A DNA stretch of 64,000 bases from Liquidambar formosana. Taxonomy: Eukaryota; Streptophyta; Magnoliopsida; Saxifragales; Altingiaceae. The notes under the pieces were generated by a model. The model ran no database searches and was not told the DNA's origin. It saw only the letters and a program-made list of their open reading frames with translations. The stretch is from positions 7,768,107 through 7,832,106 of the forward strand of contig CM077823.1 in assembly GCA_039720395.1 (NCBI GenBank), read 5' to 3'. Below, piece after piece: positions 1-54,992 of this stretch; positions within the stretch are counted from its first letter, which is position 1; every line of letters begins with the position of its first letter. Both the position numbers and the translations under genes were made by a program.

Positions 1-968
1 TCATGTCGGATATTCTCCACCAAGGACAGTTCCACGAATACCATGACAGGAAATGTTAGAAAGCATGCCGCGAAGCTCCTTGATGCTAGGAAAAGGTTTA
101 ATCAAGGCCCGACGGCGGTAAAGTTGTGGTTGGTACGCCCAAGGACTCACGTGGGGTTCTACTATGAGCTGCAAGCGTTCGAATAACCAAATCTGAAAAA
201 TTGGGAAAAGTGGATCAAACCCTTTATGCGTACGCATCAAGATTCAATGCGTACGCATCCCATCCACATGCGTACGCACTGATGAAGGAAAAAGAAGCCA
301 AATGCAGAATGAAAAAGAAAGGATGGACGGGAATGAAGGGGAATTTACCTGCAACAGCAAGGGACTGCCACCAACAAAGGGGACCTCACCCCTCACAAAC
401 CTATCTAGAGCATTGAGAGTTCCGGCTAAGACCATCATGCTTGGATTGGATTCCCTCAATAAAGGAAGGATCTGCAATAGGGCCACGTCGGCGGAGTCGG
501 GGGCATCCACAAACAAGTAACATGCCAAGATACAAAAGCAAAGGGCATTTAAACGGTGTTGGAGTTGATTACCTGTAACTATAGGAGGAAGTTGGCTGAA
601 GTGCGAAACTACAAGTTGGAAGTCTATCCTTGAATTTGAAAACCATCCCCGAGCTACCCTGGTGGAATACCGAATAAAGAAGAAATTAGGCCCTCGACTT
701 TGAGCGGTACTACGGGTGGTAGTAATATATGGTCGAAATCTGGACGCCCAAGGATGGCCCCAAATTCCTCCATGGTGGGACACACTTCCGTGTTATTGAA
801 GCGGAACACATGACGAGAAGGATCCCAAAACTCGGTAGCCAGTTTGAGAAAGTCTTGGTTAACCCGCACTTGGGAATAATCAAGCAAAGAAGACAGTTGA
901 AACTGGGATTTAAATTCCCTGCGAGATTGGCCATCCAAAGACTTGAGCCAGTTAGAAAGGTTCGCCAT
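1..968 (-). CDS. Antisense DUF7745-like ORF of the retrotransposon, cut by the window start
   Basis: The minus-strand reading starts at ATG 968 with MANLSNWLKS. Its first exon, to about 655, contains FWDPSRHVFRFNNTEVCPTM followed by EEFGAILGRP, the hallmark of plant retroelement DUF7745 proteins (a WDP motif, then PTxEEF/Y). Later exons carry LNALCFCILACYLFVD and, after an intron, IWLFERLQLIVEP. The last visible intron is clear: donor CAG|GTAAAT near 349, acceptor TTTTTCAG|ATTTGG near 202. A 21-bp palindrome array lies inside it. A TATA-like box is at 1041-1050. Middle exon joins are uncertain and a frame break cannot be excluded. The C-terminus lies beyond base 1. The function of DUF7745 is unknown; such ORFs are common in Tat-like elements. 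Confidence 0.6.
227..278. repeat. Palindrome array 1 (3 x TGCGTACGCA)
   Basis: Exact decamers start at 227, 248 and 269, so spacing is 21 bp twice. The array lies in an intron of the antisense DUF7745-like gene. The 11-bp spacers are not conserved. Confidence 0.95.
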
Positions 969-1040
969 TAGTGAAAAATAGGAGGTGGAAGGGATGATGC
1001 TGGTAGAGTTCAAGTGGCGGCTAGGGTAATGAAGAAGAAG

Positions 1041-1050
1041 CCTTTATAAA
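1041..1050 (-). promoter_or_regulatory. TATA box of the DUF7745-like antisense gene
   Basis: The minus strand reads TTTATAAAGG, about 75 bp upstream of the ATG at 968. Palindrome array 2 starts 87 bp further upstream. Assignment is by position and consensus only. Confidence 0.5.
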
Positions 1051-1136
1051 GAAAAAGTACAGCAAATGCCCTTTTGGGAAAGAGACAAACAAGAGAGACT
1101 GCTGTGGGCCCTAAAAAAGGACAGAATTTCATTTGA

Positions 1137-1188
1137 TGCGTACGCATTAATTCCAAGTGCGTACGCATTAATAGTGGGTGCGTACGCA
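1137..1188. repeat. Palindrome array 2 (3 x TGCGTACGCA)
   Basis: Exact decamers start at 1137, 1158 and 1179 (21-bp spacing). The array is upstream of the TATA-like box of the DUF7745-like gene and downstream of the end of the PMD gene. Confidence 0.95.
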
Positions 1189-3280
1189 TTACGTGTTTCC
1201 TACACTGTCAGAACACCCTGTTTCAGTAACCGAGCCACCTGGTTTCATCTATATTTACACTAAGCAGATCAATGCAACTTCAAAATCATTTCAGGCAGCA
1301 CACAACAATTCAAAGCAAGAAAAGCACATACTGAAATAAAAACCAAGTGCAAATGTTTAAGTACATAACCCCGAAATTGAAATTGCAAATTGTCCAAAGT
1401 AAAGAGAGATAGAGTCTAAAAGCCCCTAGGGCGATAAGATGGACCGCTGGATGAACCAGCCCCACCACCACCTTGCCCACCATCATCACCACCCTCATCA
1501 TCATCACCACCTCCACCTGCATCTGCTGCACCTCCGGGTGCCGGCCCTCCCCGCATGCGCAAGATTGTCGCGGAATGAGCAGTCAACATCCGCTTGAGCC
1601 CACCAAACATCTGGTATACAAGCTCCATCTCCGCAAGGGTAAGCTGAAAAATCAAAGTGCGATTAGGGCATGCATATTTCGAACTAACTATTTTGCAGGA
1701 CCTGTCAAGAGAAAGAAGAAATGCTACCTGACGCGTGCCAGGAGGAAAAGGGAGTGGATGCGCTCGCGGGTCGGGGACAATGGACTCCTCATACGCCTCG
1801 CCCTTCTCATCATAAAGAGGAACCGACCACGAGGGGAATGCAGGAGGAAGTCCCTCGGGAGGAATGCCCGCATCAGGAACCTGGGTATGAAAAAAGTGCA
1901 ATGACAGGGGCAAGCTTATGGAAAGCAAAACAGTGACAAGAATGGAACAGAATGGATACCTGGTGACCAATGAAGCGGGGCATGAGGCGCTCCCTGGCAA
2001 AGGTGGCATAGTCATGCTCTAGGCTCAGCAGACGAGAAATGTAATGAATGCCACCTCGCCACTCATCCAAATCTAGCTCACCCATCTGATAGGGCACCAA
2101 GGAGAAGGCAGGAGGATCATAGGGGACTCGGGCACACAACTCAAGATCTGTAGTCAGCTGGGGCACGACCCTTTCGGCAAAGTAAAAGGCCCGGGCACGG
2201 GGATAGGACAGCAAACAGGACACCTCAGCCATGGCGTGCGCGTCCTCCTCCCACTCTGGGGGACCAACCTCGGCTCGACCAACCCAAGGGCGGGGATTCA
2301 CCTATTGTCAGGACATGATCAGCCAAAAGGAAACAAAAAGGGGAAAGAGAACAATAGAAAGCAAAAAGTGGACCCATACACGCTCAAGCCTGTCTAGGAA
2401 CTCTCGGACTCCAATGTGGGACAAGTCCTCCTGATCGCCCAGAGGTCTCAAGTCAATGTACTCCTGGGCCCATAGCTGCAAGACAAACAAAGAGAATCAA
2501 TAAACATCTTGAGAAGAGAGCAAAGCATGAAAATAGAAGAGAATGGAACCCATATACGGTTACTTACCGCCCAAAGCCTCCAGCAACCTGTCAAAGAGTC
2601 GGATTTTACCCGACTAAGGGCATCCGTGGTGGCATAAAGGTGTGCCAAGACAGCCGACCCCCATCCATACTCATATGCAGCCTCAAGGTCCTCCAATGCT
2701 AAGAGCCAACCTGGCTCAAAAGTCTGCGCAGCATTAGGGACTAGAAAAGCCCCTATAAGGTAGAGGATGAAAGCCGAGCCATGATAACACGCTCCTCCAC
2801 AGAGTCCTGCCCCTCCCAAGAAACTCATTGTACAAGGCTGGATACTTCATGGTGGCATTGGGGCAAGGCACGCCCAACAAACGCTGGGTCAACGCCTTCC
2901 TTTGATCCTCAGTCAGCTCAAAAGTGAAGGGCCTCCCCCTCATTCGAAGACCTGTCAGACGGTGGAAGTCATAAGGGGTGAGAGTCCACTCCCTACCCGC
3001 CAAATGGAGGGTATGGGTGGTATCCCACCATCTCTCTGCCAGGCAGAAAACCAAGGTGTTGCTGGTAGCCCGATGAATCGTCACTGCAGCCACGGTCCCA
3101 AACCCGACATCCGACACTAACTGCTGAGTATCGGGGGTCAACCGGTCCCACCAAGTGGTCAAACTCTCCAGACTGCCACGTCCACTCTTCTTCTTTGGAA
3201 TCTGAAAAGAATGAAGACCCAGGTAAGTACAGGTACAGGTGAGCATGGATTTAGATTGATTCTGCCAAATAAATGCGTGG

Positions 3281-3352
3281 TGCGTACGCATGGTCAATGG
3301 TGCGTACGCATTGGCCACAGTGCGTACGCATATGAAAGTCAGTGCGTACGCA
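3281..3352. repeat. Palindrome array 3 (4 x TGCGTACGCA)
   Basis: Exact decamers start at 3281, 3301, 3321 and 3343 (spacing 20, 20, 22). It lies in intron 1 of the PMD gene and is the only cluster not at 21-bp spacing. Confidence 0.95.
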
Positions 3353-3410
3353 TCAGTGCTTAATTTCATCTGATTCCCGTTTTATTTTTATTTGTGTAAT
3401 CAATTCATGG

Positions 3411-3483
3411 TGCGTACGCACTATGTACTGATGCGTACGCACTACATACTGATGCGTACGCACATACCATCTATGCGTACGCA
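3411..3483. repeat. Palindrome array 4 (4 x TGCGTACGCA)
   Basis: Exact decamers start at 3411, 3432, 3453 and 3474, all at 21-bp spacing, in intron 1 of the PMD gene. Confidence 0.95.
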
Positions 3484-4120
3484 CTCAGGACCCTGGTTCG
3501 TCTTCAACCTCGAGACCATGAACCCCCTCAACCTCCAAACTCAGATTTCACAAGTTTTCTCCAGTTTTTATGATGTATACAGACATACTATGATCATTTG
3601 AGGATAAAGTTCACATTTTTATGGACGGTGAGAGATAAAAATCAGATCTTTGAAGGCATGCATATTCAACAATGGAGGAATGGGTTTCAAGACTTACTCT
3701 TTGTTGCCGTGCAATGTGGGAGAGATGCTCCTGTGGCCTGAAGATGATGTCGGGGATTTGCTGCGGGTTGAGCCGTGGATCCCAACGGTTGATGGTGAAC
3801 CCTTCATCATCGCCGCGAAACCGTTTGTTCTTGGGAGGCATGTTTGCCGGCGGGAAGTTGCAGAGAGAAAGTAAGAAGAAAAGAATGGGAAGAATGAGAG
3901 ACAGAGGAAGGAGAACAGTTGGGTTGGGAATGGGTTTGCAAGAGAATAAGAACAAGTTTTTTTAGGAGTGAGTGGGAGAGGGAGTTATGGAGGAGTGGGG
4001 AGTGATTTTCGGGGTAATGGGAAGCGTCGCCGGAGAAGAAGAGGTCGTTTCAGAATTTGAAACACCCCTTAAAAGAAACGGTGCCGTCTCGGTAAAAAAT
4101 TTTGGCAGAATTGCATCTTA

Positions 4121-4172
4121 TGCGTACGCACTAAACATGGGTGCGTACGCACTAGGTATTCATGCGTACGCA
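4121..4172. repeat. Palindrome array 5 (3 x TGCGTACGCA)
   Basis: Exact decamers start at 4121, 4142 and 4163 (21 bp). The array is 280 bp upstream of the PMD gene ATG and about 46 bp upstream of a weak TATA-like CTTTTAAGG (minus, 4067-4075). It borders the minisatellite. Confidence 0.95.
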
Positions 4173-4226
4173 TCATGCCTTCCCCCACGTATTCCTCGAT
4201 CCCATCTCGCGTCGCCGTGTGACAAA

Positions 4227-4710
4227 TCCGATACGACTGAAATCGTACCTAATCTAAGGTCCGAAATGAAGGAAATCGCACCTAATCTGAGGTCCGATAC
4301 GACTGAAATCGTACCTAACCTGAGGTCCGAAATGAAGGAAATCGCACCTAATCTGAGGTCCGATACGACTGAAATCGCACCTAATCTGAGGTCCGATACG
4401 ACTGAAATCGCACCTAATCTGAGGTCCGATACGAAGGAAATCGAACCTAATCTGAGGTCCGAAATGGAGGAAATCGTACCTAATCTGAGGTCCGATACGA
4501 AGGAAATCGTACCTAATCTGAGGTCCGATACGAAGGAAATCGTACCTAATCTGAGGTCCGATATGACTGAAATGTTACCTAATCTGAGGTTTGATACGAC
4601 TGAAATCGCACCTAATCTGAGGTCCGATATGACTGAAATCGTACCTAATCTGAGGTCCGATTGCGAAGGAAATCGTACCTAATCCGAGGTCCGATATGAC
4701 TGAATCTACG
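4227..4710 (+). repeat. 33-bp minisatellite, about 14.5 copies, in the element's 3' UTR
   Basis: Units begin TCCGATACGACTGAAATCG and end CCTAATCTGAGG. Two sub-variants, one with ATACGACTG and one with AAATGAAGG, partly alternate. The length of 33 keeps an 11-residue repeat (SDTTEIVPNLR) open on the + strand until a 1-bp insertion near 4660. Hypervariable tandem repeats at this position are typical of Ogre/Tat elements, so translation is probably incidental. Confidence 0.95.
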
Positions 4711-5009
4711 CCCACCCTGGGGCCCAATGTATCCTTTTAACCCGCTCTGGGGTCTGCTTTATTCTTCAAGATAACTGTCATCCATTGATTTATACCTATT
4801 ACCATCCTCGTTATAACCCAAACGAGGTCGGATTCTCACATATGCATGAACTACGGCGGGTCTGATCCCTTACAAAAGGGTACGTAGGTAGTTAGGTGAT
4901 CCCTAATTCGACCCCATGCATGGTTACATTTGATTTTGAGTTGTTAGGCGGTCAAAATGATTGGGTCTATGGAATCTTTCGACACCACTCGAAGGAGCGA
5001 GTGAAATCG

Positions 5010-5019
5010 AAAGAGGGGC
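5010..5019 (+). other. Polypurine tract of the LTR retrotransposon
   Basis: AAAGAGGGGC lies immediately before the LTR start at 5023 and is the expected plus-strand primer site. It indicates that this LTR is a 3' LTR in + orientation. Confidence 0.75.
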
Positions 5020-5177
5020 AACTGTAGACACCCCATTTTGTACCACCTAATTAATTTGAAATCACGTATTTTGGAAACCCAATGATGAGGTTTATTGTAT
5101 GTTTTGAGATAATGACAAAGCAATTCCCGACGAGTAGCCAAGATTACAACAGGAAAATACTGTCCATCTACATTTCA

Positions 5178-5229
5178 TGCGTACGCACCAATGGGTGGTG
5201 CGTACGCACCAAGTTTCCATGCGTACGCA
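5178..5229. repeat. Palindrome array 6 (3 x TGCGTACGCA)
   Basis: Exact decamers start at 5178, 5199 and 5220 (21 bp). It lies in the LTR U3 region, ending 157 bp before the TATA box. Confidence 0.95.
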
Positions 5230-5386
5230 CCTTAAGCCTTTTTCAGGCCCCTTCAGATCTGTCTCCCACTAAACATGAGAGCATGGGGGAGAGTATGGGG
5301 GGGGAGTGGGGAGATTCCCACGGGTGTTCCCCGCATGGGTAGGGGATGGGCCAGTCAGGGGATGTTTTCAAAACCTAATTGAGCCC

Positions 5387-5394
5387 TATTTATA
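5387..5394 (+). promoter_or_regulatory. Probable LTR TATA box
   Basis: TATTTATA is followed by a GA-rich leader, and is 365 bp into the LTR. This suggests the U3/R boundary is near 5420. Positional inference only. Confidence 0.5.
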
Positions 5395-6243
5395 CTCTAC
5401 TGATGGGACTGGAGAGGGGATGAATCAATCAGTCGGGAGGGGTCCTTTTTTTAGAGATAGAGCTATTTCCTTTTTTGGATAGAGGCTTAAGGGAGAACGG
5501 CCAGAAAGAGAGAGTGAGAGAAACCAAATACCCACCAAAACACCAGAAAACCAGAAGAGAGAAAGGAGGGTTGAGTGTTGTAATCTGAAGCTGCGAGAAG
5601 GGAATTGCTGCGTTGATATTGGAAGCATTCAAACCTGAGGGGTACGTATCACAGACACACATATATATATGCACTGTAAATTTATACTGCATATTTGTTT
5701 CTATGAGTTATTGTTTAATATAATGATGCCATGTTACATTGTTAAGGTCAAGAAAATCATTGGTAATGTTAGATTTGAAGGAAAATAGCCGTGACATGAG
5801 TTCTTGAATTGACGGGTTTTCGGGTTATAAACTCAAAACTTTGACCCAAAAAATAATCATGATTCTGCAAGTTTTTGGATGAACGATTTATGCGCGCTTG
5901 TAGTACGCTGCAAGAGCTTCAATTTGGTTTTTGAATCATTAAATTCGGTTAAGAAATGAGTAAGATAAGTTAGGGAGAAGTTAGCATGGGACAAAGCTCA
6001 ATACTGCATTTTTCAGCTTCAACCCGTTCTGAGGTTGAAGGTGAAGTGGACAGTGATCCAGTGTGGGCGTACTCACCCACAGGTACCGTGTTCCCTAGCA
6101 TTTGAAGACCTTAGGTTGGCCCGATTGACTCCAAATTTGACAGGCGAATTCGTCTTGTTGAGACCTATCATGTGGGACCTTTGGTTGGTCATTTTGACCA
6201 CAGTTTGACCAACTTTGACCGTTCATCATTTAAGCTAAGTTGG

Positions 6244-6274
6244 TACGTACGCACCACTGCGTGGTGCGTACGCA
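6244..6274. repeat. Palindrome array 7 (2 copies, one variant)
   Basis: TACGTACGCA at 6244 (one substitution) and an exact decamer at 6265, spacing 21, in the LTR downstream of the TATA box. Confidence 0.85.
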
Positions 6275-6626
6275 CCACTTCTCCTGGTAGAGAATTAGTT
6301 AATGTTAGAGTAATTAGTTTTAATATTATATTCATGGGTTTAATGTGAGTACGTGTGGGTTATATTGTTTATCATAATTTATTCTGGTTTTGATTAAAAT
6401 AGATTAGATTATATCATTATAATATTAGTTAGGTTATTTTATTAAGTATGGTTAGAATATTTAATGTTAGTGTGAGTATTTTTTGTATATATTAATGGTT
6501 GTATCTTTTGTTTAATATTAGTGTATGCTGATTGGTAGTTTTGTAGATTAAATTAATGTTAGTGGTGTTAATATTTTATTTATAAAATGCATGTTAGTGG
6601 AAAATGTAGGGAAATTGTCTTGCTGA

Positions 6627-6657
6627 TGCGTACGCACCACTTCATGGTGCGTACGCA
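6627..6657. repeat. Palindrome array 8 (2 x TGCGTACGCA)
   Basis: Exact decamers start at 6627 and 6648, spacing 21, in the LTR. Confidence 0.9.
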
Positions 6658-6716
6658 CCCTATGCTCTGACAGAAAAAATTAGTTTGCTTCAAATGGCCA
6701 TTTTGAATCCACTTGG

Positions 6717-6768
6717 TGCGCACGCACCACCATATGGTGCGCACGCACCAACACCTGGTGCGTACGCA
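6717..6768. repeat. Palindrome array 9 (3 copies, two variants)
   Basis: TGCGCACGCA at 6717 and 6738, and the exact decamer at 6759, spacing 21 twice. The same T-to-C change in two adjacent copies suggests local duplication or conversion. Confidence 0.9.
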
Positions 6769-7138
6769 TTGTAGTTTAGGTACTCTTTTATCTGTTTATT
6801 CATTTTTGCTTTCCGTGAGTTATTATCTCCTGTATATTCTGTCATGCCATGTGCTACTAACCATTTCTCTACTTGATTATTTTCTTATTTGCATAATCAT
6901 TTGCGTGCTTGGCATATTGTTGCATTTTCGCATGCTTAGGGTTAAATTTGATTAAATACCTTGATTAATTAAAGCCAACAATTATTCACGGAGGCCGGTT
7001 TCGACCGGGCATTTTTGGGTGCCTAATACCTTCCCAATAATGTACCCTAGCTCCGGACTTGAATCTCTGGACCTCGAATTTGACCAAAAACACAGTTCCC
7101 AAAGCTAAATTGGGTGGCGACTCCCGCTTGCGCTCACA

Positions 7139-8350
7139 CACATGACAATGTACTAACCATTGTCAAAGTAGCATGAACAATTTAAAACAGAGTGAGTAGT
7201 GGTATATGTACAAAGTAGTTTAGTAGTATACATTTTTAAATTGTCCAAATGGAAGATTCAAGATTAATCGATGTGTCTGATGGGCTAACTACTAACATTA
7301 ACCCATAGGATCCTGTTAAGAAACATGTTGTTTCATAAAGACAAAACGTATTGTCCAGACACCATCCTTGCATTAGGAAAAAAAAAAAAAGATAGGTAGC
7401 ATCTTGTGGCACTGTATCATTCTTGAACAGCTATCCTAGGTGGGTATGAAATATAATAATAAAGGAAACAAATATAACACATAAAAGCGAAATCTCCAAC
7501 GGGTAAATATAACAAAGTTTCTAAATTAATGACTAATTTTTTTCTCAAAAGACATGTGCAAACTTAAACAAAAGCATGAGGCAACTTGAAGGGACACCTA
7601 GCACCACCAATTCAAATTATAGTATTATACAAGTACCATTATAAAAAGAAAATCCTAACAAGTTGACCAAACCTCCCAACAACACAACAAATATGGGATC
7701 TCCTCTACCATAATTTTATGTTTTCATAAACAAAGAAATTCTTCAAGGCCTATCAATATTTTGCCAGTAACTAGGATTACATCATGGGAAAAAAAGTGGT
7801 TTTAAAAAGTCACCCCAGTAACACCAACTAGGGTTAGGGTTTAGGTGACATGATGTTGACATATTATTATATACTGTATTCACTACTTTAATCTCAGGAA
7901 GGGTTAACTGATGATGATTAATTCCATGTGTGAAAAGTCTAAATCCAAATTTAATTCGTCAAATGCCAGATCCCTAGCTTAGTGGCACTTGATTCCCCCC
8001 ATTCTAAAGGTGTACCATTCTTGTCATTTAGAAAGAAACCAGAACCTCTATGATCTTAGCATACATGGAAAAGAAATAGTAAATTAAATTAATATTGAAA
8101 AGAAGTATTTGGGTTGCAGATGAGTTTAACCCCACCAATTGGGTCATCCTAGCATGAGACATTTGTTCTCAAGCTAGGGACACACTAACAATTGAGACTC
8201 TAACCAATTTTTTCATCATGCAAATGCTTTGGAACTCAGAATTTACTGAACAGCATCCTATAATTTTCTAATCAAGTTGCACAAAGGTAATTCCAACTTT
8301 CTTCTCACATTTATCTTTGCTAAGTAGATTATTATTTTACAAAAGAAATA
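7139..8350. other. Intergenic stretch without a recognised feature
   Basis: AT-rich sequence with a short A-run near 7378. I see no gene, terminal inverted repeat or retroelement motif. Confidence 0.6.
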
Positions 8351-8354
8351 TGCT

Positions 8355-9270
8355 TAAAACGATTGGCGTGCAGCCTGGCCAATATCATCTTGAAGAGGCA
8401 GAAGATCGATATGCCAATCCAGGGATACTGATATCTCTAAGACATTAGCTTTCAAAGCAGATTTTACACCAGGAAGCAAGCCAATAACTTCAGCAACCAA
8501 AGCACGTACCTAAACCTTGCTTGAGTGCAGAGCAACAAAAAGTGAAAGCACCTCCCAAATCAAACAAAATGGCTTCCCCAGTAACAAAATTTTTCCCTTC
8601 TTTGTAAGCTCCATCGCAAAAATGCTTCCAAAAACTCCCCTCATCAACAGGAAAAAGAGGGGAACAAGGCCATGCATCCTCAACCCGCCAAAACCTGCAT
8701 TGGCAAAGTTTGAGCCAGAGCAAAGATATTATCCTCAAGAATTCTATAAACATGGCAAGCTGGTTTATTAATGCAGGGATTATTGTGTCTAAAAACAACT
8801 CTATTCCGTTCCAACCATATTGCCCACCTCACTGAAAATTTGACTGAATGGATCCATTAACAATCAGTGCCCAGCATAGAAGAATCAACCTTTGGAAATA
8901 ACCAATCACAGAGTTGAACATTTGGAAAATTCTCCAAATCAACAGAAGGGGGAAGCAAACCAAAACTTGCGAGAGAAAGGGCAGCTCAAAAAGAAATCAT
9001 AAACTAACTCTTCATGAGACTTAAACATAAGGCATAATATGTCCATCTCCATAACCCTATCTCTCAGAATTTTGAAAACAGGCACTGTATCGTAGAGGTA
9101 TTTCCAAATAAACATTCTGAACTTTGGTTGGACAAGAGTATTCAAAAGTTGCTTCCAACAAAAGGTGGAAACTGCCAAAAAGGAGGATGACACTCTGCTG
9201 GAGAATTTGTCAGTTATATTTTTGGCGAAATTCAGTGTATTTTTGTTACATAAATTTTCTCGGCACAAAA
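8355..9270 (-). pseudogene. L1-type LINE 3' fragment (zf-RVT plus RNase H-like), decayed
   Basis: The minus strand encodes a zf-RVT region near 9200-8945, with WKQLLNTLVQPKFRMFIWKY and HEELVYDFFLSCPFSRKFW. An RNase H-like region follows near 8650-8360, with DGAYKEGKNFVTGEAILFD and EVIGLLPGVKSALKANV. This is the usual order at the 3' end of plant L1 ORF2. At least two frameshifts and stops separate the pieces. The solo LTR begins about 20 bp beyond its 5' end. Confidence 0.7.
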
Positions 9271-9321
9271 CTAAAAATCTATGTATGAACCTGTGATGAC
9301 CTGACTTTTTTTATATATATA

Positions 9322-9580
9322 TGTATAGAGGGATCATTAGCCGCACCCATCACTTGCATCTGCTTTGGATGTGTATATATATATATATGTATAGAGGGAT
9401 CATTAGCCCCACCACTTGTATCTGCTTTGGATATATATATATATGTATAGAGAATCATTAGCCGCACCCACCACTTGCATTTGCTTTGCATTTGCTTTGG
9501 ATATATATATCTGTATAGAGGGATCATTAGCCGCACCCACCACTTGCATCTGCTTTGGATATATTTATATGTATAGAGGG
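9322..9580 (+). repeat. Minisatellite (55-67 bp units, about 4 copies) inside the solo LTR
   Basis: Units read TGTATAGAGGGATCATTAGC, then a CACTTGCATCTGCTTTGGAT segment, then a variable TA run. Starts are near 9322, 9389, 9444, 9511 and 9570 (partial). Length variation comes from the TA tracts and one internal duplication. Confidence 0.85.
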
Positions 9581-9730
9581 ATCGAGACAGAGAGTTAGAG
9601 AAAGAGCAACAGAGAGAGAGAAATTGAGGAAGAACAGAGGAGAAAAAAAAAAGAGTGGTCTGGTGGAGGTTTTTGGCTGAGTTCGTGGAGCTCTCTTAGT
9701 GAGGTAAAATCCTCACCTCCTCTATTGTTG

Positions 9731-9767
<37 letters not shown>

Positions 9768-11823
9768 GCAATTTTATTTTCTTATGTTATTCTTAGAAAG
9801 GATGATCATATTTTATGTTTTTGGGACCAAGGAACACCATGGTAGTGTCAAATTTTAGAGAAATTGACTGTAGGTTGAAGTTTTAGAAATTTTAGAATTT
9901 TGGATCATGAAAACCCGAAACTTTAGGATTAAAAACAAATATGATTTTATAGGATTCTGAATGAACAATTTATAGTCGCACGTAGTACTCCGCATGAGCT
10001 TCGATTCGACACTTGAATCACTGAAAACGGTTAAGAAACAAGGGAGATATTAATCATCGAAGTTGGCTCGTTGAACACACGGTGTAACCCGGTTACACAA
10101 TTCAACCCGCGGGAGGGTGAAGATGACCCCATAGGTCTATGATCCTGTGTGGGTGCATCTGTGTACCTTACCGTGTTCTCATGCATTTAAAAGCCATACG
10201 ATAATCATATGAACCCCAAATTTGACCGTTGGACTCGTCTTGGAGAGCCCTACCATGTGGGACCCTTAGTTGACCATTTTGACCAAGTTTGACTATAGTT
10301 TGACTTTTTGGCCAAATTAATATTTATTAAAAATTCTAGAAAATACCAGAAAATTCCAAAAATTACAGAAAATTCCCAGAAATTATAGAGAGTGTTTTAA
10401 AAATTATTTTGATGATTTTGGGACCATAGTTCACTGTTAGAAGGCCAATAGTAATTTTTGAGTGCGTTATATTTATTTTGAAATTTACCTAAAGATTACG
10501 TATGCATAATTATCAGATTTTATCGGTCCTCAGGAGGACCCTAGGGAGCATTAACGCTGCATTCGCATTGTCAGTGTCTATCACGTGGTTTTGGGTTGGT
10601 ATTGCTCGCAATTGAGGTAGGAAATGTGGCTTCTTTACATTTAATATAGTGTTGTTCTATAAATGTGATTTTAAATGCTTTAATGATATTTTTGGATTTT
10701 CCCACTGATTTATAACCAAATATTTTATTACTTGTTCAAAATTTAGGGAATCCTTCAATATATCATTTGATACGACTGTTTTATATTGTTCCTTAAAGAT
10801 ACATGGTTATATACTCGTTTAAATGTTATTGTGAAATATCTGTTAAATGTGTGGAATTTTCATGATACTTGGATCTTGGAAAAATGCTTTATAAATGTTG
10901 TTTACTTGGAAATGCTTTAGAAATGTTACTGAAATTCTAGAAATTTATCAAACATGTTTATGGATACTTTTGGACACTCGGATATTTATTTGAATGATGG
11001 AAAATGTTTTGGATATATGGACCTTGGGTCTTGGTATGCATCAAATGGGTGGGGGCATCACAATGAAGTGGTGTCCTGCGTTGAGAATACTCCGCGAATA
11101 GCAAGCAGGGTAAAGTGCCCTTGGGTGAAAGACCCTGAAGCCCTCGAGGAAGAACGCCGCGTAGGTGTTGGTTATTTTCGTGCTTGGCTGAGCCGGGGGT
11201 TGACGTGACGACGTAACCTGTGATTAGCGACGGTTGATGCATGGTTTGATCCCATAGTCTTGGGAATTAGAGATACTATGAGAATTTTGGGAAATTAACT
11301 CAAAACCTACACAAAGTATTGATTTGTGACTGGTATTTGATTTTGAGTTATTAAATGATTTTAATTCATATACCATGTATCTGCACATATATTAATTGTA
11401 TAGAATCCACACATATTTCCTATTGGGCTTTGCAGCTCATCCTATTATTATTTCAGATGATCAGGTGATGAATGAAGGTTCGCCGATGGCGGATGCCTAG
11501 TGGCATGATTTGAGGTTGGAGTGTGAAGGTTGCATACTAACATAGTCATGGATGAGGATAGATGCACGTGCCTTACATAAAGACTATGTTATTTTGGTGT
11601 GTAGACATTACTATTATTATTGTTATTACAATTAGTATTTACTGAACTTTGAGTAGTTTGAATCTAGCCTATATGTGCCAGGGATGTTGGCATTATTTTG
11701 GGGGATTATATATTATTATGGGCATGATGTGTGAGCATAACATTTCATATTAATTATTTGGGTATTATTGATGAGCTGGCACCATTATTATTAAAAATAA
11801 AAAAAAAATAAAAAAAAAAAATA

Positions 11824-13394: not shown

Positions 13395-14458
13395 CTAGTA
13401 TGTATCTTCAGGGGTACGGTCATTTTCTTCATCTTCTTCTTCTTCTTCTTCTCCGGGATATTCTGAGTCCTTCTTGCGCATATAAGCCTCCATTCGTTGT
13501 AGGCCCTGGGAGATCACTTCTATCTGGACAGATATTGTGGCCATTGAGACGTTAGGCCCCTTAAAAAACGACGATGCTTCAGCTTGAGATTGCACAGCTT
13601 TTCCTTTGTTAGTGGTCTCATCGAAACCCATTTTGAGTACGGTAGTGGCTGAAATAGGTAACAGAGGATATACAGGCACACAGTTTGCCCTAAAACAACG
13701 TCACAATCTTTGCATATGAGACACACTAAACCCCTAAATGGAAGACTTCTTCCACCCATCCTTCTTCCACTCGTCACATTAACCATAACTTTCCAAATAA
13801 TCAAAGCCGGATCGAGGACATACCCCTTTGCGATGCACCAGAGAATATAGACCACATCCGCACCGGCATCATTCATATGACCTCCTTTGGGGACCAGATT
13901 ATTGAAAATCATCATGCTCAAGATACTGTATTTGGGAAGCAAGAACTTCCTTTCCAATGTATTGTGCCACACTACCTTATGCCCACAAATCTTTTCAGTG
14001 ACAATCATTCTTTTGAGCTTGGAATATGATGGTGGTGGAAATGCTCGAGGATCAGCAGGCCTCGTGAGTTTGAGCAGCTGGGCTATATACCCAGGGCTGA
14101 TATTCAACGAATGGCCAAAGACATTGGTGACGAATCCTTGCTTTTCAGGGTCAGGTATGGTGAGATTGCTGTAGAACAGCTTCACTGGTTCCCCGTACAT
14201 GTCATTGTATTGGACATCGAAAAGGGTCTCCCAGTTAAGCCTTTGGGTCGTCTCTTTTATCCCAAAATCAGATAACCCTTCAACCACAGCCCTTCTTTCT
14301 GTAACCACTTTAAACTTTGAGTAATGCTTCTCATATCTCTGCTTAGCTTCTTCACTGACGAAATCTTCGGCGGTGATGCCGTTATGGGAGCTGCCCCCTT
14401 GTGAGCTCGCTTTTCTTCTGCTGCATTTCGTTTTTGGCCTTTTCTTTTGCGAGCCATT
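13395..14458 (-). pseudogene. Retroelement ORF of the putative plant transposon protein family (PF20167-like)
   Basis: From ATG 14458 the minus strand reads MARKRKGQKRNAAEEKRAHK (basic N-terminus). After a 1-base loss in a G5 run near 14398 it continues DFVSEEAKQRYEKHYSKFKV, the FVSxEAxxRY motif that opens this family. The core follows: EPVKLFYSNLTIPDPEKQGF, NVFGHSLNISPGYIAQLL, then GHMNDAGADVVYILWCIAKG. A second frameshift near 13685 leads to the usual coiled and acidic C-terminus (GLQRMEAYMRKKDSEYPGEE then an EEEDEEN run). Domain order and length are near normal, so two single-base lesions inactivate an otherwise nearly complete ORF. Such ORFs are usually carried by Ty3/gypsy elements, but no LTR was seen beside it. 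Confidence 0.65.
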
Positions 14459-14699
14459 GTTGCTGGAAACCCTGGGTACGCTGTGGGAGGAGAAATGGAG
14501 AAGAATGGTCTGTTCTTGGCCATAGAGGTCGCTTAAGCTGTAAGAAATTTTTTGAAGGCCTTCGGAATTCGGACTGTGAATATCATAGACCCGGGTCGGA
14601 ATATATTGACCCGAACCAGAAAATGGCGGCGTGCCTATTGTATAACGGACGTGCCGAAGCTGAACGTTATTTCAGTTATTAGATCTCAGTAGTCCCCAC

Positions 14700-20537: not shown

Positions 20538-20946
20538 GGGTCAAACTATTGCCACCACATAAAATACTCTAAGTCTCCTACTTAGTTTACATTTTTTAAG
20601 GTTTTATGAAAATATAAAAGGTTTTTATGAAAACTAATAATGTAGTCTAATAGAAAACATCATTCTAAACAACTTTGTAGAAGAAATTTTTTTCAAAAAC
20701 TATCATTCAAGTGGACTTTTGGGCCATTTTTTATGGAAAATATAATAGAGATTATAAATGACCAAAAAGTCCACTTAAATGACAAATTCTGAGAAAACTT
20801 TCTTTATAAAGTTGTTCAGAATGATGTTTTCTAATAGACAGCACGGTTAGTTTTCGTAAAAACTTTTCATATTTTTCATAAAACCTTAAAAAGTGTAAAC
20901 AAATGGGGGGCTTAGAGTACTTTATGTGGTGGCAATAGCCTCCCTC
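20538..20946. mobile_element. Mutator-like foldback MITE, copy A
   Basis: The two halves are near-complete inverted copies. CTATTGCCACCACATAAA at the left is mirrored by TTTATGTGGTGGCAATAG at the right, and AACATCATTCTAAACAAC is mirrored near 20820. It belongs to the same family as 54595-54992, which has a 9-bp target duplication. No clear duplication was found for this copy and its exact edges are estimated. Confidence 0.7.
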
Positions 20947-28900: not shown

Positions 28901-31900
28901 AAAAATTAAGCAAGGCTCTCATTAGGCATACACCTCACCAGCTGAGGCATAGTCTAAGGTGCACTTTTTACGCCTTAGCACATTAGGCGTACGCCTCATG
29001 CGACTTCTGTTAAACCTTTTGATTTAATTCTTATTTTTGTATGTTATTTGAATGCATTAAATAAGTTTCAACCGTGTTTAATTTATTTTTGTACATTTTA
29101 TATCAAAGTATCAAACCATGTATATTAGTAGAATTATGTTCATACTTTTTTTTACATGTTTATGTACAGTTTTTGTATAACTTAATCCATAATGCAATAT
29201 GAACTTTTTTCTTTAAATAACTATACTACTATGATTTTAAATGTCCCAAAAATGTTTATATACTTTTTTAGTCTTGGTGTTATTTATTAATTTTCAAAAT
29301 GCTACTCCTTTTTTTTCTCTCTCTCTCCCTTTTTCAAAATGAAAATTACTAACTGAAAGGCTTACACCTTATGCCTTGAGGCTTACGCCTCGCTTTGCAA
29401 GGAGTAAAATGCCTCGCCTAACGCTTTCGCCTTTAAAAACATTGGTCTGGATTGGTCATTGTTTTGCCATGATCTTGTTATGGGTTCTACAATTTGTACC
29501 TAGCAGGACCCTTCTTTGGCCCTTAAATGAGCCCTAAGCACTAGAATGCAGATTTGGACCCTGGCCAGCCCTCTCAAACATTTCTATACCTTGGGAGACT
29601 TATTCGTATGCTTCCCTGGGTTACTGAGATTTATGAATGTTAATAATTTCCAACTGACTTGATTGAATGTGGAGATGGGTCCTCCAATCTCAGTTCCGTG
29701 AAACTTGGGGAATCTTTAGTTTAATCGATATGGTGTGGAGATGAGTTAACGATCTTGGAACATATAGGGTGTGAGTGGCAAAGTGTGTGGACAAAGTGCC
29801 ATGTCACACATCAAGCCTCCTTTCCCTCCTTGTGTCTTTGTGATGATGATATAGGGTGTGAGTGGCAAAGTGTGTGGACAAAGTGCCATGTCACACATCA
29901 AGCCTCCTTTCCCTCCTTGTGTCTTTGTGATGATGATATAGGGTGTGAGTGGCAAAGTGTGTGGACAAAGTGCCATGTCACACATCAAGCCTCCTTTCCT
30001 TCCTTGTGTGAATACACAATATGGAGACTATAAACTACCTCTAAGAATTAATGAAATGTGTTTTTTTGTTTGAAGTACCAATGAATATACAAATGTTTTA
30101 AAAGAAAACAGAATTTTGCATAACCAATTTAATATGAAATTAAAATCCAATGTAATTGTATTATTTTTCCTTGCAACTTTCAAGTTTTTAATGGGAAGTG
30201 TCTTCCCTTTTCTTTAGACTTGAAAATGGGGCATTTTGTGGTATTCCATCAAGAAGTTATTTAGACATTTCATTTTACTGACCAAATGATTACCATGAAG
30301 TATATAAACTTTGGTCTATCTTGTTCCTTTCTACCCCTTTGGTTGTGAAAATGAGAAAAATAGGCATTGAGATCTCTGCAACATTGAGTTTTTAAGATAT
30401 GGCACTTTTATTTGAGGATTGTGAAGAGAACATTATTTTTTTTTTCTTGTCAATGTTACCCTATTTATAGTTTTGTATATATGGAATATTAGTTTTCTTC
30501 TCTTATTAAATGATTGTGTAGAAACTATACTCTTTGGCAAGTACTTTCCAGTATTTAACTTACTGTGAAGCTACATGAGTTTCTTGCATGTATGGTTTTA
30601 ATTGATTCTAATGGGAAATTGCCGTTGCAACAGTGATCGTTGGGGAAATTGCGAATTTTGCAGCTTATGCATTTGCACCAGCTATTCTGGTCACTCCTCT
30701 TGGTGCACTCAGCATTATAATCAGGCATGGTAGAACGTCATGCCAAAGTTAAGTTCAATTCTCTAGTGTTGAGTTCTGACCACCATGTTGTCTTGTAGTG
30801 CTGCACTTGCACATATAATTTTGCGGGAGAAGTTACATATTTTTGGAGTTCTTGGTTGTGTTCTATGTGTTGTCGGTTCTACAACAATTGTTTTGCATGC
30901 TCCTCAAGAACGTGAGATTGAATCAGTGAAAGAAGTGTGGGACCTTGCTACTGAGCCAGGTAGATTTTTTTTTTTTTGCTATAATAATGTCTTTTCGATT
31001 GTCCATTATTTCTTTTTTGTCTGTTTACTATAATGTTTTTTGCTTGCTTATATATATATATATATATATATAGGGGAGGGATCTGTTTACACCCGGTGTA
31101 AAACTTTTTACTCTTACACCCCTAAATATCTTTTTGTTGGAATAATATTTCGCCATTCCAATTGTTGGATTAGGTTCTCTATTCTTGCATGTCTTGTATG
31201 ACGAATTTCAAGTAAATCGAATATTAGGAGCTATGTCATTCATAAAGTGTCCTAAATTATAGTTTTATTTATAAAAAGAAATGTAAGTTTACAGATCAAA
31301 TGCTTCTTGTTTCCGATTTACTTGAAATTCGGCATGCATGACGTGCATGAATAATGTACCTACCTAATCCTGGCGAAATATTATTCCCACAAAATGATAT
31401 TAAGGGGTGTAAGAGTAAAAAGTTGTACACTGAGTGTGAGTGTAAGCAGATCCCTCCCCATATATATATATATATATATATATATTGTAACTAGATGGGC
31501 TTAATGACTACTTTTTTTTGCAGCTTTTCTCTTCTATGCAGCTTTGGTGATAACGGCTGTGTTTATATTGATAATACACTTTATCCCACAATATGGCCAG
31601 ACACATATAATGGTTTATATTGGAGTTTGTTCTCTTGTAGGATCTTTGTCGGTATGTATTTTGTAGTCAATCAGTTTTCAAATGTGTGAGTGCATGGGTG
31701 TGTGTGTTTTTATTATTGCTTTTTTAAAATATTATTTTATTATGCCTTGACAAGTTCCTTTAAAATGTTGATATTCTAATGATATGCTCGGCAGGTCATG
31801 AGTGTTAAAGCACTTGGAATTGCTTTGAAGTTAACATTGTCGGGAACAAATCAGCTAATCTATCCCCAAACATGGGCTTTCACTATAGTTGTCATTACTT

Positions 31901-54594: not shown

Positions 54595-54992
54595 GGGAAC
54601 GGCTATTGCAACCCCTATTCTTATAACCCCACCCCTTTCTTTTTTATTTTTAAGATTTCATGAAAAATATAAAAGGTTTTTGCAAAAACCGGTCACTCAG
54701 TCCATTAGAAACATCATTTTGAACAACTTTGCAGAAGAAAGTTTTTCTAAAATTTATTGTTTAGGTAGACTTTTTGACAAAAAAATGAAATAAATGCTAT
54801 AAAGGGCTAAAAAGTATATTTAAACGATAGATTTAGGAAGAACTTTCTTCTACAAAGTTGTTCAAAATGATGTTTTCTAATAGACTTCATGATTGGTTTT
54901 CATATAAACCTTTTATATTTTGCATAAAACCTTAAAAACCTAAAGGATGGGGGGTGGGGTGATAAGAATGGGGGATTGCAATAGCCGTTCCC
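54595..54992. mobile_element. Mutator-like foldback MITE (398 bp), copy B, complete
   Basis: Ends GGGAACGGCTATTGCAACCC and GATTGCAATAGCCGTTCCC begin inverted arms of about 170 bp (AAACATCATTTTGAACAAC is mirrored by GTTGTTCAAAATGATGTTT). The 9-bp flanks CCAATTGAA (54586-54594) and CCTATTGAA (54993-55001) differ at one base, which is the Mutator-type duplication length. Confidence 0.85.

Follow-up and report, generated by a model that had tools for sequence, protein, structure and literature searches.

To our knowledge, VANDAL elements, a group of plant DNA transposons, provide the only known case of sequence-specific anti-silencing. TnpA of En/Spm is likewise an element-encoded protein with many short subterminal sites and an effect on methylation, but it belongs to a DNA transposon and its sites are found only at the ends. 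Here, we analyzed a 64,000-nucleotide stretch of Liquidambar formosana DNA (assembly GCA_039720395.1, contig CM077823.1, positions 7,768,107 to 7,832,106, forward strand; the window), in which a long terminal repeat (LTR) retrotransposon with antisense genes for PMD and DUF7745 proteins carries phased arrays of a short palindrome in its noncoding DNA. An earlier reading of the window alone (the original prediction) had seen these arrays and named VANC and VANDAL as a precedent. In the available portions of the literature, VANC21 is described as binding a motif of nine bases that lies in introns and in intergenic and terminal noncoding DNA, with other motifs in related VANDALs and with DUF1985 as a domain of the VANC proteins (PMC5735166), and RNA-directed DNA methylation and VANC are said to meet in noncoding DNA (PMC10398659). 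Our comparison strengthens the precedent: a short motif is repeated in the same kinds of noncoding place, introns, intergenic and terminal regions included (PMC5735166, PMC10398659), related elements use different motifs, here at corresponding positions, and the PMD proteins of our elements match DUF1985 weakly. The systems differ in that VANDALs are Mutator-like DNA transposons of Arabidopsis, whereas ours are LTR retrotransposons. Moreover, the VANDAL motifs YAGTATTAY and AGTTGTCC/AGTTGTAC are not described as palindromic or phased in the available text (PMC5735166), whereas the motif studied here is a strict palindrome set in helical phase. The candidate protein in our elements would be PMD/DUF7745, with anti-silencing suggested by analogy.

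Ogre and Retand elements of the Ty3/gypsy group offer a second comparison. PMD has been reported in 57% of Ogre elements (PMC6317226), and the available part of the Retand paper describes antisense genes and tandem arrays between pol and the 3' LTR, together with a TRP28 protein for which DNA binding is suggested (PMC11963269). Our elements share the antisense extra genes and, as in Retand, tandem repeats at this position. An element related to that of the window has the Ogre/Tat-like order gag-reverse transcriptase-integrase (loci L014/L015; L numbers denote further stretches of the host genome), with an antisense PMD gene between pol and the 3' LTR. A phased palindrome array is not described for Retand or Ogre in the portions at hand, and the available Retand text does not mention PMD or the DUF (PMC11963269). 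In the accessible passages, PMD occurs in Gypsy-only clades (PMC5418596), and its function in Gypsy elements is given as unknown (PMC9289625). The same domain is found in MAIN and MAIL1, relatives of the Gypsy-encoded PMD-A clades, and promoters of MAIN- and MAIL1-dependent genes are enriched for a 'DOWN' DNA motif; unlike the proteins discussed here, these are Arabidopsis host proteins that silence transposons, and the parts of both papers available report no direct binding (PMC5418596, PMC7156037).

In the window, the decamer TGCGTACGCA is present in 24 exact copies (first start 227, last start 6759) and three copies with one substitution (starts 6244, 6717 and 6738), spanning 227 to 6768. 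This recount agrees with the original prediction, as do the nine clusters of two to four sites and the expectation of about 0.006 copies of one 10-mer in 6.5 kb. It had also reported no exact decamer elsewhere in the window, and indeed the rest of the 64 kb holds only words with two mismatches outside these unstranded clusters:

227..278, cluster 1, three sites within the intron of DUF7745, whose ends were read by eye
1137..1188, cluster 2, three sites in the stretch separating PMD from DUF7745, 5' of the DUF7745 start
3281..3352, cluster 3, four sites with steps of 20, 20 and 22 bp in PMD intron 1
3411..3483, cluster 4, four sites, likewise in PMD intron 1
4121..4172, cluster 5, three sites 5' of the start codon of PMD
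5178..5229, cluster 6, three sites in the LTR U3 (+155 to +206), 5' of the TATA-like box
6244..6274, cluster 7, two sites in the LTR, the first with one substitution
6627..6657, cluster 8, two sites in the LTR
6717..6768, cluster 9, three sites in the LTR, the first two with one substitution

The arrays thus lie upstream of all three transcription units (LTR, PMD and DUF7745), in introns and downstream in the LTR. Within clusters, 15 of 18 steps measure exactly 21 bp, the exception being the 20, 20 and 22 bp of cluster 3281-3352. All 27 sites are preceded by a purine and followed by a pyrimidine, which the original prediction had missed, and the unit is therefore better described as the 12-bp palindrome RTGCGTACGCAY. 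Both CpGs are intact at each of the 27 sites (54/54), compared with 33/42 CpGs in an adjoining tandem array of 33-bp units; this contrast is only suggestive, because the array may already have differed before insertion.

We searched the host genome (717,955,123 bases) and found 16,267 copies of TGCGTACGCA versus 109 of a reversed control palindrome, and 4,376 exact decamer pairs at 21 bp versus none for the control. Since transposition multiplies copies, such counts are not independent, and the comparison of families is the real test. Twenty stretches were examined: 14 chosen by motif, four of 10 kb at round coordinates and two to the left of the window. The decamer was present in all 14 motif-chosen stretches and absent from the four round-coordinate stretches, a small sample, and from the two left of the window. 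Pooling sites with at most one mismatch from the window and L011-L028 gave 189 sites, a set that includes same-family copies and LTR pairs. Their 132 steps of up to 70 bp comprise 21 bp (85 steps), 20 (28), 19 (2), 22 (1), 16 (1) and 13 (2), with 13 longer ones. The regularity of exactly 21 bp asserted by the original prediction thus holds for the window, apart from cluster 3281-3352, but not in general: near-strict 21-bp spacing is a trait of the window element and of a second motif type described below, and other elements with the decamer mix 20 and 21. The flanks are largely retained in the pooled set, with a purine before 181 and a pyrimidine after 184 of the 189 sites; a longer extension seen in the window (TRR...YYA) fails in the pooled sites and was dropped. 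Among prokaryote genome contigs, four stretches contain one phased pair each, which we set aside as chance in GC-rich DNA. IMG/VR yielded no phased pair, and the 12 IMG/VR stretches that fit a PMD peptide pattern were not confirmed as PMD.

A second word occupies the same layout. The LTR in L012, which starts near 3140 and lacks the decamer (type 1), contains ATGCACGTACGTGCAT (type 2) at the corresponding places and in 21-bp phase. The 14-mer core of this word, TGCACGTACGTGCA, is found 2,170 times in the genome versus twice for its control, and both words share the core CGTACG, which holds two CpGs. In the element covered by L012 and L029, type-2 sites are located in PMD intron 1 (L012 6862-7057), upstream of DUF7745 (L029 667-709) and in the DUF7745 intron (L029 1538-1559), while those at L012 9518 and 9539 and at L029 180-222 belong to a further LTR copy between both genes. 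Ten of the 11 decamers in L012 reside in a nested type-1 LTR; the remaining one, with one substitution, lies at 6699 in the PMD intron. All 15 type-2 steps under 60 bp in the first four loci equal 21 bp. Five further loci picked by the type-2 core have the LTR start and end of the group and sites at corresponding offsets; 13 of their 15 steps under 70 bp are 21 bp, and no decamer with up to one mismatch occurs in them. The type-2 proteins are closest to those of the type-1 element L024 (DUF7745 62-66% and PMD 58% identical, compared with 32-52% for the other pairs that include these type-2 proteins), and the L024 and L012 LTRs both start with TGTTAACACC. A code switch is probable because the nearest protein relative of the type-2 element L012/L029 uses type 1. 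A change of word inside the L012/L024 branch is probably the simplest account of these similarities, which are unrooted. Mixed-array LTRs were observed in L017 (from 3859) and L018 (from 3648); they are 99.4% identical, and PMD was not detected there. This array is a possible intermediate between the two words.

The motif-bearing loci that we examined are LTR retrotransposons. By eye, the heads of the type-1 LTRs fall into seven groups, which align with the window LTR only at its ends and over short stretches. Nevertheless, in all 15 type-1 LTRs compared (11 insertions; the L023 LTRs were left out, as their start could not be located by similarity to the window LTR) a site or cluster is found at +146 to +230, another group of sites from about +860 on, and a TATA-like word (six were tried) at +335 to +417. 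Both PMD and DUF7745 are present in five elements, namely those of the window, L014/L015, L020/L021 and L024 (type 1) and L012/L029 (type 2). Their protein pieces are 34-62% identical to those of the window (38-54% for L029). Relatives of PMD exon 1 could be found in the other four elements, which makes the intron-1 position testable: all five elements have arrays in PMD intron 1 and 5' of DUF7745, and three (window, L024 and L029) also have one in a DUF7745 intron. Four of them carry sites upstream of PMD (three sites in the window, seven apiece in L014 and L020, a single one in L024); L012 shows no clear array there. Across six loci with 134 sites, two sites fall within a stretch of protein similarity, and each could be assigned to an intron; this count covers exons with detected similarity. 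The tblastn match in L024 that contains two sites runs into an intron with a stop codon. In L031, we found no PMD, no DUF7745 and neither motif.

We compared the conservation of motif and spacers. In the window, motif identity among sites is 0.978, whereas the inner nine positions of the 15 spacers in 21-bp steps are 0.38 identical within and 0.35 identical between clusters (permutation p 0.38). Between the L014 and L020 copies, 11/321 motif, 14/153 spacer and 299/7,521 other positions differ (10/305, 10/139 and 306/7,643 with the other copy as guide), and between L023 and L024 the differences are 5/144, 12/72 and 175/2,585, two LTR alignments being mixed in the latter comparison. The motif therefore differs less than the spacer in two of three between-copy comparisons. 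LTR pairs report divergence after insertion, and here the motif is not spared: 3/108 motif positions differ versus 10/1,251 elsewhere in L014/L015, 2/108 versus 18/1,228 in L020/L021 and 0/60 versus 10/1,635 in L017/L018, with no spacer differences in any pair. This pattern, though based on small numbers, fits selection on replicating elements combined with CpG decay in fixed ones. The stronger argument is that the word persists in families whose surrounding DNA no longer aligns. The original prediction had named three outcomes that would count against it, and as far as these checks were run, none was observed: the decamer far exceeds its control in the genome, other families of elements also have it in phase, and the spacers are less conserved than the motif in the window and in two of three comparisons. 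Its observation was right and under-stated, and its interpretation is partly supported.

On balance, we read the clusters as arrays of sites for a sequence-specific DNA-binding regulator of this Ty3/gypsy lineage that co-evolves with its sites. The sites are two-fold symmetric and helically phased, they occupy promoters and introns, and one type predominates within an element. This points to a single trans-acting protein; its binding, its identity and its effect on transcription or silencing are inferred. As each site is a 12-bp palindrome, a two-fold symmetric complex would be expected, and neighbors 20 or 21 bp apart would present the same face of the helix, an arrangement favorable to side-by-side binding. 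The bound protein would turn on the promoters of the element or keep them clear of silencing marks, by a logic analogous to the action of VANC on VANDAL transposons; anti-silencing or activation of element promoters appears to be the most likely effect. Methylation could act on binding, because both words carry two CpGs in CGTACG.

By analogy with VANC, the likeliest reader would be the PMD protein, with or without DUF7745. Seven of nine PMD pieces match DUF1985, with E values of 5.9e-07 (L014) and 7e-06 to 0.011 (the six others), and DUF7745 of L014 matches PMD (E 0.0013). DUF287 was not among the Pfam matches of the PMD pieces, sequence searches of the PDB returned nothing convincing, and NCBIfam gave no match. 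An AlphaFold2 model of a PMD protein, P0002, had a mean predicted local distance difference test score of 38 and was not used. Among the matches listed, publications containing the decamer, the 12-mer forms or the type-2 core concern other subjects only, and DUF7745 had no literature match. Among the titles and abstract openings listed on palindromes in Ogre LTRs, LTR-retrotransposon anti-silencing and antisense PMD, none concerns such arrays, a scope that mostly leaves aside subscription papers. More tentatively, and at somewhat less than even confidence, we propose a lineage-wide, self-run system of anti-silencing or self-activation, in which PMD/DUF7745 proteins would read phased palindromes at promoters and in introns; the code would have diverged into two or more cognate words, including TG-CGTACG-CA and TGCA-CGTACG-TGCA, which may be swapped element-wide.

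Several observations weigh against these proposals. The loci were picked by motif, so that its presence in them is given by construction; the observations independent of this choice are place, phase, gene content and the lack of the other motif. The reader could also be a host factor. L013 and L017/L018, where PMD was not detected, carry sites in their LTRs, which fits a trans-acting factor of either source, element or host. The type-1 elements share one motif even though about 40-65% of residues differ between their PMD pieces, and all DUF1985 matches are under the Pfam cut-off (the best with 30.0 bits versus 35.1), two of the nine PMD pieces having none. In 5/15 type-1 LTRs (L013 twice, L016, L019 and L022), the U3 holds a single site with one CpG-type substitution. 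The L015/L021 comparison shows differences at 3/108 motif, 1/52 spacer and 476/8,824 other positions. Evidence for the code switch comes from a single type-2 element that has both proteins, and the L017/L018 LTR pair has one type-2 site 23 bp before two type-1 sites.

SBP/SPL proteins recognize a GTAC core and NAC proteins CGT half sites, and the arrays might accordingly be host enhancers adopted by the elements, bound by host transcription factors that drive transcription of the LTR and of the antisense genes. We consider this rather unlikely, but it would account for the CGTACG core common to both motif types, for U3 sites some 140-260 bp upstream of the TATA-like words and for the retention of sites in elements without detected PMD. 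It sits less well with an element that has the other type throughout its LTR, introns and DUF7745 upstream region, or with the absence of the decamer from the four 10-kb stretches at round coordinates, small as that sample is, and arrays in introns and their phase would be unusual for host enhancers. Retroviral dimer sites are short palindromes, and the words could similarly act in RNA, pairing between or within genomic RNAs for dimerization or packaging. Perfect palindromes do self-pair, and many of the sites are in the internal region, which genomic RNA would include. An RNA function nevertheless appears quite improbable: it is hard to see what steps of 20 and 21 bp would mean for RNA loops, every LTR examined has a site or cluster upstream of the TATA-like word, and although the flanks are purine and pyrimidine, mixed pairs (such as A with C), which self-pairing would disfavor, are frequent.

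The remaining two explanations dispense with a specific reader. Alternation of purines and pyrimidines, over 12 bp in RTGCGTACGCAY and over 16 bp in ATGCACGTACGTGCAT, could favor Z-DNA or position nucleosomes, but a structural need would permit many alternating words, whereas the examined loci use two, each of them nearly invariant, and alternation is weak beyond the 12-mer; we regard this as very improbable. It is harder still to believe that the clusters are functionless short tandem arrays made by slippage and spread by transposition. Tandem Repeats Finder does report seven of the nine clusters, and two spacers of cluster 4 are closely similar. Yet spacers of one cluster resemble each other no more than they resemble those of other clusters (p 0.38), the motif outlasts the spacers in two of the three copy comparisons, and the places recur in families that align with the window LTR only at the ends and over short stretches. 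Steps of 20 and 21 bp occur side by side, and the spacers bear no trace of duplication, which is why we favor helical phasing over slippage.

The window carries only the 3' part of the element that hosts these arrays, whose LTR lies on the plus strand. No match to the 3' LTR was found in 20 kb leftward, 2,707 bases of which read N. Splice sites and introns were read by eye from the sequence. The features are:

1..968, minus strand, antisense DUF7745 gene with its start codon at 968 and an intron at 348-193, extending past the window edge
1419..3841, minus strand, antisense PMD gene with exon 1 at 3841-3698, intron 1 at 3697-3202 and exon 2 from 3201, its left end approximate
4227..4696, plus strand, tandem array of about 14 units of 33 bp between the PMD upstream region and the LTR
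5009..5022, plus strand, polypurine-tract-like stretch preceding the 3' LTR; the stretch 5003-5044 is matched in several related elements
5023..7075, plus strand, 3' LTR beginning with TGTAGACACCCC, its right end approximate by similarity and the true end maybe tens of bases further on
5387..5394, plus strand, TATA-like box TATTTATA of the LTR at +364

Pfam PF10536 (PMD) matches the minus strand in two pieces, one just under the cut-off, and PF24924 (DUF7745) matches at 657-1043. Both genes appear broken in the window, because the matches change frame where relatives keep one frame. In the related element L014/L015, gag, RVT_1 and rve are arranged in gypsy order on the minus strand, opposite to PMD; the antisense PMD gene is located between integrase and LTR in L014, and it adjoins the 3' LTR in the window. 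Several units of the 33-bp array show CpG-type changes. The P0002 protein is 98% identical to the PMD piece of the window, and its residues 1-45 align to 3204-3381 on the minus strand. It reads through the intron, with the residues that four intact decamers would encode and with changes between them, which is consistent with a second copy that keeps cluster 3.

Further observations concern related LTRs and neighboring DNA. L013 contains a compact element (1845-9660) whose single long frame is gag, with LTRs 99.66% identical and type-1 sites in both; it is probably a young, non-autonomous user of the motif. The window stretch 9292-10400 is diverged and LTR-like, with a tandem array of its own (9312-9575) and about 68% identity between 9931-10304 and 5849-6219. 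In this related-looking LTR (from 9292) and in another one (L016, from 8639), we found neither motif and no phased palindrome. L015 encodes a G-patch domain upstream of reverse transcriptase in a shared open frame (861-2894). Elsewhere in the window, an open frame with Transposase_32 (PF20167) lies on the minus strand (13520-14671), and three stretches (20546-20938, 31049-31484 and 54595-54992) are each self-complementary when inverted, over about 400 bp; two are related to each other, and all three resemble foldback elements or miniature inverted-repeat transposable elements.

LTR retrotransposons may thus possess a code analogous to that of the VANDAL transposons, with exact and testable words. 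The arrays provide a candidate ligand for the PMD and DUF7745 proteins encoded here, and two motif types with one layout lend themselves to a specificity swap. If true, the proposal would assign a molecular task to the Gypsy-encoded PMD genes and to the ancestors of MAIN and MAIL1.

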